From a virus: a stretch of 42,619 bases of DNA. Position 1 is the first letter of the stretch; the number at the start of each line of letters is the position of its first letter. Where the stretch lies: positions 1 through 42,619 of IMG/VR virus record IMGVR_UViG_3300042923_000463; one strand, written 5' to 3'. This document shows, in pieces, positions 3,302 to 13,103 of the stretch. Position numbers and translations under genes: made by a program. The notes beneath the pieces are model-generated. The model made no database searches and was not told the origin of the DNA. It saw only the letters and a list, made by a program, of their open reading frames with translations.

Positions 3302-3838
3302 TCACTCAAGCCATTTCCAGTTCTTACGCAGAACAATATGAGAGACCGCCTCAGGCGTAATGCCGTAATCCTTTGCCACTTCACGTCTCTTGCGCGAGTC
3401 GGAACGTATAGCCTTAACCTGCTCTGAGGAAAGCTTACTCATGTTATTTTTCTCGCCGTGGTTGTTGGTACCATGCAAAATCTTATCCGCCATGTTTCCC
3501 TGCTTCGTTGCCCAACGCAGGTTATCGAGCCGAGCGTTGGCCCTATCTCCATCGTTGTGCGCAGCTTCCATACCAGGCGGGCAAGGGCCAACAAAAGTCT
3601 CAAGGACGATTCTGTGCACGCTATAACGCTTGCTCTTTGACAGTGCTACCTGTAGGTAGCCGGTGCTGAGCAACCAAGGCTGCAATATCTTGCCCGGTAT
3701 GGCCCTAGTGCCATCGCCTGTCAATGGCCCGCACTGGACCACTCTAGGCAAGCTCTTCACCCTTCCCATAGTGCTTACCATGTAATTCTTGTCGAATGGC
3801 ACTTCGCGCCACTGCTCATCCTGAAAATCTGACTCCAT
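3302..3838 (-). CDS. NUMOD4-HNH endonuclease (homing type), 178 aa
   Basis: A DNA endonuclease of the free-standing homing group. The N-terminus (WREVPFDKNYMVSTMGRVKS) is a NUMOD4-type DNA-binding module. It is followed by an HNH_3-type core (VHRIVLETFVG, AAHNDGDRANARLDNLRW) and a C-terminal helix-turn-helix (REVAKDYGITPEAVSHIV). The start at 3838 has GGAGGTG just before it and lies 23 bp inside the 3' end of ninB. The gene is visibly more AT-rich than its neighbours, as expected for a mobile endonuclease gene. Confidence 0.88.
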   Translation of the reverse strand: MESDFQDEQWREVPFDKNYMVSTMGRVKSLPRVVQCGPLTGDGTRAIPGKILQPWLLSTGYLQVALSKSKRYSVHRIVLETFVGPCPPGMEAAHNDGDRANARLDNLRWATKQGNMADKILHGTNNHGEKNNMSKLSSEQVKAIRSDSRKRREVAKDYGITPEAVSHIVLRKNWKWLE

Positions 3839-5597: not shown

Positions 5598-5884
5598 TGC
5601 TTTGCCCCTTCCGCTGGCACCTTGCCAGTACCGTTACACTTCTTGCACGGGCTCAGTTGTTTGCCGCCCGACCCATAGCACGCCTTGCAGCCGATCATCC
5701 GGACTGGCGCCTGCGCTTTCTTCAGCACCGTATCGGTCAGCACGCCCGATGCCTCATCCTGAAAGATGCTGGTGTACGCCAGTGCGTCGCGCGCCATCTG
5801 CCGCACTTCTTTCATCTCCAGCCCTACACGTCCGTTCACCATTTCGATGAACAACACTTCGGCCAAACTTTGCTTTTCGTTCAT
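5594..5884 (-). CDS. DnaJ-type zinc-finger protein, 96 aa
   Basis: The start at 5884 is chosen for the GGAG eight bases upstream; an in-frame start at 5935 would run back through a hairpin in the leader. The C-terminus has two CxxCxGxG-like repeats (CKACYGSGG and CKKCNGTGK), the zinc-binding motif of DnaJ cysteine-rich domains, and no J-domain. It is first in the recT-yqaJ-ninB group. A role with the recombination proteins is inferred from position only. Confidence 0.75.
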   Translation of the reverse strand: MNEKQSLAEVLFIEMVNGRVGLEMKEVRQMARDALAYTSIFQDEASGVLTDTVLKKAQAPVRMIGCKACYGSGGKQLSPCKKCNGTGKVPAEGAKQ

Positions 5885-6795: not shown

Positions 6796-7614
6796 CTACA
6801 TTACACACTCGCAAGAGAACAGGTCCTTCGTCTGGTGGATAGCAATCCACTTCTTGCTATCGGCCCAAAACTTTTGCTGTGGCACTTGCTCGGTAGCCGG
6901 AACGCCAGCCGCAAGCATTTCCTCGAACTTCGCTTCCATGTCTTCCAGATACACAGGGCCGGTGTCGTCATGATGGATGGCATGGCCGATTTCTTCCTCC
7001 GCCCACTTGGCTTTGTTCCAGATGTCCCGGCGAGTTACGTAGACCACGTACCAATGTTGCCACCCAGCCTTCAGGCACCCTATGCAATTGCCATGCTTCC
7101 ACACCGAATACGTATTCGGGCGGGAAATACCAATCTGCTCCGTGCTGATCACCTGCGGCACCCCAACGAATAGTGGAAAAGCCGTTCGATATCCTTGCTC
7201 ACCCAGTATGCCACTCCGCCTTTGCACACGAGCGCCTTCGTTCGCGTCAAAGCCGTAGTAGATCGTCACGTCCTTATCCGGGTGATGGCTTTCCAAGTAA
7301 CGCATGAACGGGCCGGTCTTCAGCCGGTTGGTGCAAAGTTCCTGGCCGTTATTCACTTTGAATGCCTGGGCCTCTACGCAGACGTCGAACTGGTCTTGTG
7401 TCATCACTTGGGCATCTTTGTAGTTGGCATACGTCACCGGCACGCCGATATATTCGGAAACCTCGCGCTTGAACCGCTTGATGTCTTCGGACTCGACCCA
7501 TGCAGAGATATCGTGGTTCAGCAAGATCAAGTCGGAGGTGCCATGAACTTCAGCTACGTGAAGCGCCACTAGCGCCGAGCTATGGCCACCCGAATAGCAT
7601 ACGATGTGCTTCAT
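6796..7614 (-). CDS. PP-loop / PAPS-reductase-like protein, 272 aa
   Basis: A member of the adenine-nucleotide alpha-hydrolase (PAPS reductase/ATP pyrophosphatase) superfamily. The PP-loop SGGHSS is at residues 8-13, and CTNRLKTGPF and CIGCLKAGWQHW supply further conserved cysteines. The start at 7614 has GGAAGG upstream; an in-frame start at 7644 would overlap the previous gene. Phage members of this family are common but poorly understood; links to sulfur chemistry, including DndC-like DNA modification, are possible. No dnd partner genes are visible here, so substrate and role are unknown. Confidence 0.8.
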   Translation of the reverse strand: MKHIVCYSGGHSSALVALHVAEVHGTSDLILLNHDISAWVESEDIKRFKREVSEYIGVPVTYANYKDAQVMTQDQFDVCVEAQAFKVNNGQELCTNRLKTGPFMRYLESHHPDKDVTIYYGFDANEGARVQRRSGILGEQGYRTAFPLFVGVPQVISTEQIGISRPNTYSVWKHGNCIGCLKAGWQHWYVVYVTRRDIWNKAKWAEEEIGHAIHHDDTGPVYLEDMEAKFEEMLAAGVPATEQVPQQKFWADSKKWIAIHQTKDLFSCECVM

Positions 7615-7633
7615 AGCTTCCTTCCCTTTCAAT

Positions 7634-7867
7634 TCATTCATCATCGCCCAGCGCGCGCCCTATCTGGCGCTGGACGTATTCGTTATTGAGTTGACGCTTT
7701 ACCGCAGCGTCGATCTTTGCCCAGTCCGGCTTGAAGTCCGGATCGCTGCCGCCGGTTTCGAAGTACTCGCGCACCTGGGCGGCGTGCGCTGCTTCGAACA
7801 ACATCGAATAACGCTCGGCCTCGGCTTCTTCGTCGGCGCGGCGGGATGCGGCGCTTTGGCGGGCCAT
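7634..7867 (-). CDS. Hypothetical protein, 77 aa
   Basis: Small, highly charged, probably helical protein (SRRADEEAEAERYSMLFEAA) with no recognised domain. Its ATG lies just after the TGA of the 145-residue gene, and the PP-loop gene follows within 20 bp, so it is part of the leftward early operon. Confidence 0.65.
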   Translation of the reverse strand: MARQSAASRRADEEAEAERYSMLFEAAHAAQVREYFETGGSDPDFKPDWAKIDAAVKRQLNNEYVQRQIGRALGDDE

Positions 7868-7868
7868 G

Positions 7869-8306
7869 TCAGCCGCCGATAACGATCAGGCCGGAGCGGC
7901 TACCACTCGCCACCGCCTTGCGCCCCGACATGTCCGGAAAGTCAGGCTTGAAGCCGATGCCGCTTTCCTCGTATTCCTCCCGGCTCTCTTCGTCTTCCAT
8001 CGCCTCGGCGCGCGCCGGCTCGAACCAGTTGTTGCCGAAACAGGATGCCTTGACGCCGCCATCAAAGAACGAATAGGCATAGTCGGTCGTTTCACTATCG
8101 TTCCATGGCCACGGCCAGCCATCAGCAGGCAGCGTCACATCGTCGCGCCCCGCGAAGAACTCGGCCACCGCGGCTCGAAATTCGTCGGCGCTTTTAGCGT
8201 CCTTGACAGCCTGCGCAATGGCGTCCGGGTAACCATCCCATGCAATGCTGCCGAGCCATTCCGATTCCTTGCCTTTGCCAATATAGAAGTCCGCACGTGT
8301 TCCCAT
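7869..8306 (-). CDS. Conserved phage hypothetical protein, 145 aa
   Basis: The start at 8306 has GGAG at good spacing. The frame remains open upstream to 8729, but that extension is Arg/Ser-rich, overlaps the next gene and carries no start signal. The protein begins GTRADFYIGKGKESEWLGSI and contains WDGYPDAI, a pattern I associate with hypothetical proteins of proteobacterial phages. Acidic overall. Function is unknown. Confidence 0.7.
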   Translation of the reverse strand: MGTRADFYIGKGKESEWLGSIAWDGYPDAIAQAVKDAKSADEFRAAVAEFFAGRDDVTLPADGWPWPWNDSETTDYAYSFFDGGVKASCFGNNWFEPARAEAMEDEESREEYEESGIGFKPDFPDMSGRKAVASGSRSGLIVIGG

Positions 8307-8719: not shown

Positions 8720-8899
8720 ATGAACACACTTAAACAGCTGGTCACGAAACTGCGCGAACGTGGCTACTCTCAAGCGCGCATAGCCCGGATTGCTGGCGTC
8801 TCGCAGATGACAGTTAGCCGGTGGGAAAAGGAAGCGCCAGATCGGGTGAACATGGCGGCTCACAGGCGGCTTAGCCTGGAAGTGAAGGAAAAGCAATGA
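8720..8899 (+). CDS. Small Cro/C1-type HTH regulator, 59 aa
   Basis: A 59-residue DNA-binding protein. YSQARIARIAGVSQMTVSRW is a typical Cro/C1-type helix-turn-helix. It is the first gene of the rightward operon and lies next to the divergent promoters and tandem repeats it probably binds. Its TGA overlaps the ATG of the GIY-YIG gene. It is too short to be a full CI repressor (no oligomerisation or cleavage domain), so a Cro-like role is more likely. Confidence 0.8.
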   Translation: MNTLKQLVTKLRERGYSQARIARIAGVSQMTVSRWEKEAPDRVNMAAHRRLSLEVKEKQ

Positions 8900-10210: not shown

Positions 10211-10614
10211 TGCGCGCCGGAAAAGCACTCATCGAAGCCACCCTGGCTTACATCGAATCTCAACCGACCGCCGTCACTAACGCAATGGTCGCGCGGCATC
10301 TTAAGCGCTCGTCCTCTCATTTGTCCGGAGTGCTCACGTTGCTGGCGACTGAGAACAAGCTGACGGTCGCCACAGGAACGACGGCGAAAGGGTCTTACAC
10401 GGTACTTTACCGACCATACGGCTTCCCGCTGGTGCCGCCTGAAGGCATGGTATTCACCGATGCAGCCGAGCGCCGCAAGCCGGAGCGGCCAATCAAAGGC
10501 GAGCAGCCCAAGCGCGTGATGACCGCGGCAAAACAGATCGGGATGGCCAGGCATTGGCTCGACCGCGCCCTGTTCGGTGACGGGCCGGCGCACTCTGACG
10601 AGGCGGTGGCATGA
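10210..10614 (+). CDS. Winged-helix-like protein, 134 aa
   Basis: The N-terminal 60 residues (ALIEATLAYIESQPTAVTN, MVARHLKRSSSHLSGVLTLL, then a short turn rich in T and G) have the helix-turn-helix-wing layout of a winged-helix DNA-binding domain. The rest is basic and unassigned. It sits between the 142-residue gene and ninG with overlapping starts and stops. It could be a transcriptional or replication accessory protein; I cannot tell which. Confidence 0.6.
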   Translation: MRAGKALIEATLAYIESQPTAVTNAMVARHLKRSSSHLSGVLTLLATENKLTVATGTTAKGSYTVLYRPYGFPLVPPEGMVFTDAAERRKPERPIKGEQPKRVMTAAKQIGMARHWLDRALFGDGPAHSDEAVA

Positions 10615-11258
10615 GCCTGGAACGAAAAACGGCTATCAAACGCACTCCTTTCGTGCAGAAGGATCCGAAACCGGCGAAGGGTCCGAAGCCGAAGAAGTGC
10701 GCCAACCGTGAGTGCCGCGCGCCTTACATTCCTGATCCGCGCCAGCCGTTCGTTACGTGGTGCTGTCCGGATTGCGGCGTGGCGGTTGCTCTCGAACGCT
10801 TAGCCAAGCAGAAGACCGCGAAGGCTAAGGCGGAGCGAGCGGCCGATGCACGCAAGAAGCGGGAAGCCAAGACGCCGGCGCAGCTTGCCGAGCCTGTGCG
10901 TAAGCTGGCGCAGAAGTATGCCGTTCTGCGCGATCGTGACTTCGGCTGTATCAGCTGCGACAAGGGGCCGCATTGGACCGGCGGCGTGTGGCACGGCTCG
11001 CATTTTAAGAGCGTCGGCGCCAGCTCGGCCCTGCAGTTCAACCTGTGGAACATTCATAAGGCTTGTGACCAGTGCAACTGGTTCAAGGCCGGCAACATCG
11101 GTCCATACGAAACCAGGCTTCGACAGAAGATCGGCGACGATCGCGTGGACTGGCTCAAGAATCACCCGCGGTCGCGCGAGTACACCCCGGAGTATCTGGA
11201 CCGCCTGGCGCGCATCCTGCGGAAGAAGATCAAACGAATCGAAAGGAAGTACACATGA
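10611..11258 (+). CDS. ninG: NinG-like recombination nuclease (Rap), 215 aa
   Basis: Matches the lambda NinG/Rap family, a structure-specific endonuclease acting on branched recombination intermediates. An N-terminal zinc-binding part (KKCANRECRAPYI, CCPDCG) leads into a basic helical linker. The core follows with FGCISCDKG, WHGSHFKSVGASSALQFNLW and HKACDQCNWFKAGN, an HNH-like Cys/His site. It fits with RecT, YqaJ and NinB on the other operon. Confidence 0.92.
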   Translation: MSLERKTAIKRTPFVQKDPKPAKGPKPKKCANRECRAPYIPDPRQPFVTWCCPDCGVAVALERLAKQKTAKAKAERAADARKKREAKTPAQLAEPVRKLAQKYAVLRDRDFGCISCDKGPHWTGGVWHGSHFKSVGASSALQFNLWNIHKACDQCNWFKAGNIGPYETRLRQKIGDDRVDWLKNHPRSREYTPEYLDRLARILRKKIKRIERKYT

Positions 11259-11479: not shown

Positions 11480-11514
11480 ACCTGTTGCGGCGTCGTCCGC
11501 ACTAGGCTAGGATA

Positions 11515-11544
11515 TTGATGTTGCCTTGGTCGGCAGCATAAAAT
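11515..11544 (+). promoter_or_regulatory. Promoter for the putative small RNA
   Basis: TTGATG (11515-11520), 18 bp, TAAAAT (11539-11544). The predicted start point (about 11551-11552) falls directly before the 5' arm of the long stem at 11553, so the promoter looks placed to make exactly that RNA. Confidence 0.5.
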
Positions 11545-11551
11545 TACGGTA

Positions 11552-11635
11552 GGGCTTCACATGCTGTCTGGCGGGTACCGTTCCCGTTCGACCAACCCTT
11601 GAAAGAGGGAGACAGCAGGTGAAGCCTTCTTTTTT
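11552..11635 (+). ncRNA. Putative stand-alone small RNA: three-way junction ending in a terminator
   Basis: A closing stem pairs 11553-11569 with 11610-11626 (16 bp with one A-G mismatch). Inside are hairpin 1 (11572-11575 with 11583-11586, plus a G-U pair outside it) and hairpin 2 (CCCTT-GAAA-GAGGG, 11596-11609, a GNRA tetraloop that abuts the closing stem). TTCTTTTTT follows at once (11627-11635). With the promoter at 11515-11544 this defines an RNA of about 84 nt. The alternative is an elaborate terminator or leader for the next gene, whose ATG is at 11647. I do not recognise the family. Confidence 0.6.
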
Positions 11636-11646
11636 GGGCGGTCACA

Positions 11647-12453
11647 ATGCATTACTACAAGAGGCACATAGGCGACTATGCCAAGAAAGCGGGGCATCTC
11701 TCCCCGCTGGAGCATGGCGTCTACAACTTGATTATCGACAACTATTACGACCGTGAGCACGCGCCGACAATGGCAGAGGCTATGCGTTGGGCGCGCGCCA
11801 GGTCGACTGAAGAGAAGGCAGCGGTCGAAGCCGTGCTTTCCGAGTTCTTCACGCTGGACGGCGAGCGATACAGCCAGAACCGGATAGAGGAAGAGTTGGC
11901 GCAGTACCATGCCAAAGCGGAAACGAATCGTGTTATTGCCGTGCAACGAGAAGAGCAGAAGCGTGCACGAAGGGAGCACGAATCGTGCACGGATCGTTCA
12001 CCAGAACAGCACGATTCGAACACGTCCGGTCAACCTAACCATAAACCATTAACCACTAACCATAAACCAGTAGATAAGGTCCAAACCAATGCCGAGCCTG
12101 ATGGCTCGACGCCGGTCGTGTCTATCGAGGTCAAGGCTGTGTTCGAATACTGGCAAACCGCTCGCGGGCATGAGAAGGCCAAGCTCGACGAGAAGCGCAA
12201 GCGCGCGATCAAAGCCCGGTTGAAAGATGGCTACTCGGCGGAAGACCTGTGCCGCGCTGTCGACGGTGTTGCAAAGTCGCCTCACCACATGGGCCAGAAT
12301 GATCAGCGCACGGTGTATGACGACATTGAACTGATCTGCAGAACGGCGGTGAACGTCGACAAGTTCCTGAAGCTGGCCGGCCCGCAGCAGTTCGCGGATC
12401 CTGGGCTGCAGCGTCAAATCGATATCCTTCAAGAATGGGCGGAGCGACCATGA
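11647..12453 (+). CDS. DUF1376/YdaU-type replication initiation protein, 268 aa
   Basis: The N-terminal domain (HYYKRHIGDYAKKAGHLSPL, EHGVYNLIIDNYY) is the DUF1376 (YdaU-like) domain, which in phages takes the place of lambda O. A low-complexity linker (NHKPLTTNHKP) is followed by a C-terminal helical domain (FEYWQTARGHEKAKLDEKRK, LDEKRKRAIKARLKDGY) like those of phage replication proteins. The linker DNA holds an iteron array. It probably binds the origin and, with the next gene, recruits host DnaB. The Shine-Dalgarno is weak (GGGCGG). Confidence 0.85.
   Translation: MHYYKRHIGDYAKKAGHLSPLEHGVYNLIIDNYYDREHAPTMAEAMRWARARSTEEKAAVEAVLSEFFTLDGERYSQNRIEEELAQYHAKAETNRVIAVQREEQKRARREHESCTDRSPEQHDSNTSGQPNHKPLTTNHKPVDKVQTNAEPDGSTPVVSIEVKAVFEYWQTARGHEKAKLDEKRKRAIKARLKDGYSAEDLCRAVDGVAKSPHHMGQNDQRTVYDDIELICRTAVNVDKFLKLAGPQQFADPGLQRQIDILQEWAERP
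11965..12069 (+). repeat. Candidate replication origin: iterons inside the initiator gene
   Basis: Five tandem heptamers of the form YWAACCA fill 12035-12069 without gaps (CTAACCA, TAAACCA, TTAACCA, CTAACCA, TAAACCA). Just upstream GCACGA occurs three times direct (11965, 11976, 12009) and once inverted (11983-11988). Iterons followed by AT-rich DNA within an initiator gene are the arrangement of the lambda origin in gene O. Confidence 0.6.
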
Positions 12454-13103
12454 GCACGAAACACGAACTGATCCAGGCGATTGCCTTGCTGCGCGCCGAG
12501 TATGACGACATGAACCCGATCGAGGGACAGCGGCTGGAAATGTGGTGGGCGGCGCTTCATCCGTTCCCGAATGGATCCGTGCGCGCATCGGCCGAGCGGC
12601 ACATCAAAACGAGCGCTTTCAAGCCGCACCTGTCGGATATCGTGAAGGGGTGCGAGGCGCAGGTGTCGGGATCATGGCTGGGCGCTGACGAAGCCTGGGC
12701 GCTCATGCCGAAGAGCGAGTACGAGTCGGCCATGCTAACCGACGAGATTGCGCAAGCCATCGCCGCGGCCACGCCATTGCTTGAGCAAGGCGACAAGATC
12801 GCCGCCCGTATGGCTTTCAAGGATGCATACACCCGGCTTGTCGAGCAGGCCCGCATAGAAGGCCGTCAGCCGCGTTATTTCCCCTCCTTTGGTACCGACC
12901 CGCAGGCGCGCGTCGTTATGCTCGCCAGGGCCGTGCAAACGGGCCAGGTGAGCGCGGATAGAGCCATCGAATGGCAGCCGGAACACGCGACCGAGATTGT
13001 CCGGATGGCCGGCGTGACTTCGCACCCGCTGCTCGCACCGCCGAGCGAGAAAGGGAAGCAGGCCGTCAAGGCGTTGCTCGCTGACTTGCGGGTGCTGAAA
13101 TGA
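12450..13103 (+). CDS. G39P-type helicase loader-like protein, 217 aa
   Basis: The N-terminal 65 residues (IALLRAEYDDMNPIEGQRLE, WWAALHPFPNGSVRASAERH, IKTSAFKPHLSDIVKG) resemble the N-terminal domain of phage helicase loaders such as SPP1 G39P. The rest is helical and unassigned. The start at 12450 (ATGA overlap with the initiator stop) is preferred to an in-frame start five codons earlier. It probably delivers host replicative helicase to the origin. Confidence 0.7.
   Translation: MSTKHELIQAIALLRAEYDDMNPIEGQRLEMWWAALHPFPNGSVRASAERHIKTSAFKPHLSDIVKGCEAQVSGSWLGADEAWALMPKSEYESAMLTDEIAQAIAAATPLLEQGDKIAARMAFKDAYTRLVEQARIEGRQPRYFPSFGTDPQARVVMLARAVQTGQVSADRAIEWQPEHATEIVRMAGVTSHPLLAPPSEKGKQAVKALLADLRVLK

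Follow-up and report, generated by a model that had tools for sequence, protein, structure and literature searches.

The window, that is, the whole stretch of 42,619 nucleotides analyzed here, corresponds to a 42.6-kb virus record whose genes include those for a terminase, a portal, a tape measure protein, RecT and YqaJ, and in which no match to Phage_integrase was found. A small Cro/CI-like helix-turn-helix protein is encoded among its rightward genes (8720–8899). The RNA element described here lies, as the original prediction had placed it, between NinG and a replication gene of the DUF1376/primosomal type, with a short ORF also upstream of it, and the features of the locus are as follows.

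10611–11258: NinG, upstream of the RNA element
11485–11513, plus strand: predicted promoter TTGCGG-N17-TAGGAT, with its −10 box at a position conserved in relatives, 16–21 nt before a1
11520–11537, plus strand: P0 hairpin GTTGCC-TTGGTC-GGCAGC, where the 5′ end of the RNA is predicted to lie (helix 1, 99.3% paired, 3/4 pairs changing on both sides)
11526–11532, plus strand: a1, TTGGTCG, the exact complement of a′
11546–11551, plus strand: b1, ACGGTA, the exact complement of b′ (helix 3, all 6 pairs covarying)
11553–11569, plus strand: 5′ arm of the closing stem P1, from the fold (helix 4, both-side changes in 18/19 pairs)
11570–11588, plus strand: P2 hairpin, with b′ in its loop, from the fold (helix 5, 100% paired)
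11576–11581, plus strand: b′, TACCGT, in the P2 loop, from complementarity and covariation
11589–11595, plus strand: a′, CGACCAA, which is the junction linker, from complementarity and covariation
11596–11609, plus strand: P3 hairpin CCCTT-GAAA-GAGGG, from the fold and the covariation of helix 6
11610–11626, plus strand: 3′ arm of P1, from the fold and covariation
11627–11635, plus strand: U-tract TTCTTTTTT directly after P1, a predicted intrinsic terminator, found at the same place in relatives
11647–12453, plus strand: DUF1376/primosomal-type replication protein, whose gene follows the terminator and starts 11 nt past the U-tract
12435–13103, plus strand: next gene of the presumed operon, with a weak helicase-loader-type match (phrog_6028, phrog_2289)

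The three-way junction (11553–11626) folds together with the U-tract at a minimum free energy of −40.9 kcal/mol (z = −5.3), a stability reached by 0 of 200 shuffled sequences, and the closing stem, the two inner hairpins, one of them with a GAAA tetraloop, and the run TTCTTTTTT right after them hold as originally described. P1 spans 17 positions with 16 pairs and one A·G mismatch. The RNA extended to 11520–11635 folds well too (−52.8, z −4.9), and a transcript of about 115 nt is predicted instead of the RNA of about 84 nt first proposed, which lacked the 5′ quarter, where the sequences complementary to the linker and the loop are located.

This longer RNA follows from the position of its promoter. 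A TATAAT-like box located 16–21 nt upstream of a1 matches at five or more of its six positions in 41 of 61 non-redundant elements, against a mean of 7 and a maximum of 13 in shuffled controls, and this conserved −10 places the start of the RNA near 11520, at the P0 hairpin. The window's own match to the promoter is weak (3/6 and 4/6). A different promoter, TTGATG-N18-TAAAAT, had been assigned originally and was rejected, since it lies inside the RNA, is not conserved, and has its "−10" between a1 and b1, which are separated by a spacer of only about 0–10 nt in relatives. It was the single match of a promoter scan for which chance alone gives 0.5 ± 0.6 matches per 1.2 kb.

In Rfam 15, neither the window nor ten other loci bearing the element gave any match at gathering, and the miRNA-type matches in the element region (E 0.3–5) were dismissed as chance. 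The 137-bp segment had only chance matches by blastn to cultured phages and plasmids, and no report of the RNA element was found in the main texts of open papers. Relatives were instead collected with sequence patterns. An exact pattern of the 5′ arm yielded three full homologues and a stem pattern 67 contigs, while further patterns for the paired segments, which are the source of many of the sequences, demanded a1–a′ complementarity. At least 193 elements, with at least 145 distinct sequences, were gathered by script from phage contigs of IMG/VR, a pattern-based sample that is biased to certain a-types and drawn from partly redundant contigs. The extraction rule itself demanded a T-run, which bears on the presence of the U-tract in relatives. 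A covariance model, R1, built from 58 of the sequences and giving rough E-values, finds exactly one copy in the window (E about 1e-18) and 104 matches in 100 sources.

Across the 104 aligned sequences, standard pairs occupy 94.3% of the cells, compared with 36–46% in slid controls, and G–U pairs are common in the helices. The compensatory changes in homologues on which the original prediction had staked itself are abundant, with a covariation score of 0.649 against 0.189 for shuffled and 0.05–0.12 for slid alignments, and with 1139 double-change cells against 342.8 in shuffled data, every helix having changes on both sides. The nested structure, but neither the a1–a′ nor the b1–b′ pairing, guided the alignment. 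Judged by these comparisons, the locus is a dedicated small structured RNA gene with a predicted transcript, and its RNA family is absent from Rfam 15, the database first proposed for a search.

The linker and the loop, given in the original prediction as an 8-base and a 7-base segment that might pair with leaders elsewhere in phage or host, are indeed pairing sites, but their target is the 5′ end of the RNA itself, where their complements lie tens of nucleotides upstream of their partners. The a1–a′ pairing can be judged without bias in the set collected by the stem pattern only, in which all 66 testable copies (43 distinct upstream sequences) contain a 7-nt sequence exactly complementary to their own a′, and 0 of 66 contain the complement of another a-type. 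Five compensated a-types were found, namely TTGGCGG, TTGGTCG, TTGGCCG, TTGGAGG, and TTGGACT. The last two were first met as single variants, and patterns derived from them found 47 and 8 contigs, respectively; in 52 contigs newly fetched in this way R1 has 46 matches. For b1–b′, whose complementarity was never part of any search pattern, at least five exact bases are shared in 76% of 149 elements, compared with 11% when partners are swapped, and 0 of 200 shuffles reached as high a value.

Both pairings covary across the five a-types and about 69 b′ loops, and 150 aligned copies hold at least five a-types and 76 combinations of a and b′. Between the close relatives L172 and L236, which are 98.8% identical downstream, b and b′ have switched together, and the same joint switch is seen between L170 and L183, a pattern suggestive of a specificity code. 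When the complete fetched sequence around each of the 104 aligned elements was searched for another paired target, 7 candidates came up, compared with 6.9 in the control. Phages with two copies of the element carry differing codes. L292 has tandem elements on the minus strand (7547–7652 and 7960–8062) with unlike a and b codes (TTGGTCG and TTGGCGG), and L126 has divergent elements (2848–2957 minus, 3623–3728 plus) with the codes TTGGAGG and TTGGCGG, an arrangement also seen in L142. In L273, elements lie at 10630–10740 (plus) and 5634–5741 (minus), the second one with the rare code TTGGACT/AGTCCAA.

At most loci an ORF starts about 9–14 nt past the U-tract. Clustering of these downstream ORFs by blastp placed 84 of 189 in a DUF1376-like cluster, and the others, named by eye, include HNH-like and GIY-YIG-like ORFs, a ParB-like group, a helicase-like ORF, a DNA-polymerase-like ORF, and small ORFs. 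HNH- or GIY-YIG-like ORFs stand directly behind the terminator in L072, L187, L204, L210, L224, and others, as if insertions of such genes had separated the RNA from the gene that it originally preceded. In L088–L090, which encode relatives of the replication protein, the element is absent.

Among 50 large records, 46 contain one R1 match and four contain two or three. A tyrosine integrase was detected in only five of these 50 contigs and none in the window, so that lysogenic immunity of the P1/P4 kind is not indicated for most of them. Patterns for the window-type core had 24 matches in 84,980 genomes, of which the model clearly confirms just one (L323), and integrated copies of the window type are therefore rare in these genomes. 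Among 50,697 phage records the element was present in two only, both from uncultured phages. The element is also present in records of 57–61 kb (L258, 8869–8976 minus; also L282, L289, and L297), where the element precedes an ORF of 78 aa. L258 (G033), the sole one of the four tested, carries a tyrosine integrase, and records of this type are possible temperate representatives.

Taken together, the arrangement is probably that of an antisense RNA of the C4/CI type fused to its own target and to a terminator, which would make it a self-regulated attenuator exerting negative feedback on early replication genes, and the role as a replication regulator suggested originally is probably correct. According to this model, transcription from the promoter at about 11485–11513 would begin near 11520 with the leader of the replication operon, and the leader would expose the target first, with a1 in a hairpin loop followed by b1. 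The effector would be made next, as the long stem and the junction that presents b′ in a loop and a′ in the adjoining linker, and then the U-tract. Most transcripts would end at about 11635, thereby freeing the RNA, whose b′ and a′ may, by analogy with C4 and CI RNA, bind in trans to the b1 and a1 of leaders that are transcribed later and still nascent. Such pairing would keep a1 away from the a′ in cis, which would allow the long stem and the terminator to form and leave the replication gene untranscribed. When the RNA is scarce, as early in an infection or while the copy number is low, a1, together with b1, would pair in cis ahead of the synthesis of the 3′ arm, resulting in a poor terminator and in reading of the replication gene. 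The outcome would be negative feedback, and possibly immunity, with a specificity set by the a and b sequences.

Folding of the nascent RNAs is consistent with part of this sequence of events. For 95 of 104 RNAs, a1 is predicted to pair with a′ in cis while the 3′ arm is still to be transcribed, but full b1–b′ pairing in cis is predicted for just 39 of 104, the window's not among them, which leaves the antiterminator step in cis a soft one. Moreover, b1 is tied to the base of P1 and b′ sits at its far end, a geometry that would put them out of each other's reach once P1 has formed, so that pairing at both sites should occur either before P1 closes or in trans.

The same predictions would also suit an attenuator that acts purely in cis, in which a1 and b1 refold with a′ and b′ of the same transcript in response to another signal, such as a protein, the ribosome, or the speed of the polymerase, and no RNA acts in trans. 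This reading has some likelihood, clearly below even. The high frequency of early a1–a′ pairing speaks for it, as does the fact that the window's GGCAGCAT (11532–11539) is also able to pair with ATGCTGTC of the 5′ arm, that the sole target is the cognate one adjoining the RNA, and that the two-copy phages L126, L273, and L292 have differing codes. However, the diversity of some 69 b′ loops would then have no obvious reason, given that the rest of the b′ hairpin and the linker are conserved, fewer than 40% of the RNAs are predicted to form the full b pairing in cis, and C4 and CI RNAs, which have the same layout, act in trans according to the literature. Control might otherwise be exerted on translation, as by C4, with the released RNA or a read-through leader occluding a ribosome binding site just past the U-tract. 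The 9–14 nt between the U-tract and the start codon in most relatives would accommodate this, the C4 RNA of P1 works in that way, blocking translation around the ribosome binding site (PMC12197685), and L086, whose replication protein is 71% identical to that of the window, has a C4-ordered stem near the ATG and no U-tract. Since P1 C4 acts on translation and not on termination, the mode of action here could differ from the one proposed. Nevertheless, neither the surroundings of the start codon nor the rest of the sequence searched contain a copy of a2/b2 above chance, the U-tract behind P1 is formed like that of an ordinary intrinsic terminator, and the fact that this terminator is the RNA's own stem makes control of termination the likelier mode, so that translational control appears improbable.

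The two remaining explanations deny the element any regulatory RNA. A stable stem with a U-tract behind ninG and a short ORF could be nothing but a strong terminator of the ninG operon, but a conserved promoter and a hairpin lie 5′ of the stem, covariation extends to pairing sites that are not part of the terminator stem, and the downstream gene is just 11 nt away, all of which makes this reading very unlikely. A long inverted repeat beside a replication gene might likewise be a DNA-level element, an origin or a recombination site, that only resembles an RNA. Yet G–U pairs are common in it, the U-tract is present on one strand only, the orientation toward promoter and downstream ORF is fixed, and many different genes follow, and an element of this kind is scarcely credible.

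If the self-regulated attenuator is the correct reading, its specificity can be read straight from the sequence, in the a-types and b′ loops, and which phages silence each other becomes a directly testable prediction. A further, rather doubtful extension is that of an address code made of RNA only, in which phages sharing a and b would constitute an immunity or copy-number group with no repressor protein, and in which the RNA of a resident phage would silence the replication of an incomer with the same code and not that of one with a different code. The phages concerned would number in the hundreds, mostly have no integrase, and many are perhaps strictly lytic. The natural variants would, in addition, be ready-made sets of orthogonal RNA attenuators.

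C4/CI-type control is known mainly from a small number of temperate phages of enterobacteria, and the elements presented here would extend it to a large group of uncultured phages, mostly without a detected integrase, in which it precedes replication genes. The comparison with C4, made in the original prediction in general terms, is the right one, and the layout of a and b was checked on P1 and P4. By score, the window RNA is not a member of the C4 family, although it appears to follow the same two-site logic. The C4 model RF01695 (cut-off 45 bits), which represents P1/P7 and also matches the CI RNA of P4 and N15, has no match in the window at gathering, none with E ≤ 5 in the element region, and none at E 10 in the window and nine other element records, whereas P1, P4, and N15 score 68.8–78.8 bits. 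Conversely, R1 does not match P1, P4, or N15. A 27-position model of the b′ hairpin and linker (R2) gives P1 C4 13.8 bits (E 0.11), below a false match of 17.8 bits at the same locus, and misses P4 and N15. Neither RF03163 (c4-a1b1) nor RF01394 (isrK), the units upstream of C4 in P1 and in P4/N15 that hold the a/b targets in P1 and P4, has a match in the window or in ten element-bearing loci.

In layout, C4 and the window RNA have in common a long closing stem (17 model pairs in C4), a hairpin with b′ in its loop and, after it, an a′ linker of 7 nt, and adjacent targets on the same strand in the order 5′-a…b-3′. The core of P1 C4, CTGCTGG-loop-CCAGTCTGTCAAC, resembles the CTGCTGG-loop-CCAGTCCGCCAAC of many relatives, a likeness that suggests common descent. 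The order of the helices is different, C4 having the tetraloop hairpin, then the b′ hairpin and the linker, whereas the window RNA and its relatives have the b′ hairpin, the linker, and then the tetraloop-type hairpin, and an intrinsic terminator is fused to the window RNA, unlike C4. The C4 order is found in the three-way junctions of L086 and L087 (2838–3003), which have the complementary loops UAGUAA/UUACUA and no U-tract, and are matched by neither RF01695 nor R1. The junction of L086 occupies the same place as the window RNA and ends a few nucleotides before the ATG, and the two junctions may represent another C4-like variant, one that controls translation.

In P1, the C4 linker CTGTCAA matches TTGACAG both upstream and downstream, and the loop matches GTTAGTGA downstream, while the CI RNA of P4 matches GTGAGAA and TTCACAGG upstream, both of which are repeated downstream. 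Second, downstream targets (a2/b2 or seqC) of this kind are thus present in P1 and P4, whereas for the aligned elements there are none above control. The gene that follows is also different, mostly a replication gene here and an antirepressor in the C4 system. P4 CI is comparable in that this antisense RNA lies within a replication-operon leader and has two-part upstream targets, and it causes premature termination of the P4 replication genes (PMC4825925). The upstream target of P4 belongs to an isrK-like unit that stands apart and ends in a U-tract of its own, whereas the window, which is without an integrase, combines target, effector, and terminator in one compact unit of about 115 nt. Attenuation of the pIP501/pT181 type in plasmids likewise controls termination ahead of a replication gene, but it employs an antisense RNA from the opposite strand, whereas in the window element target and effector lie on the same strand.
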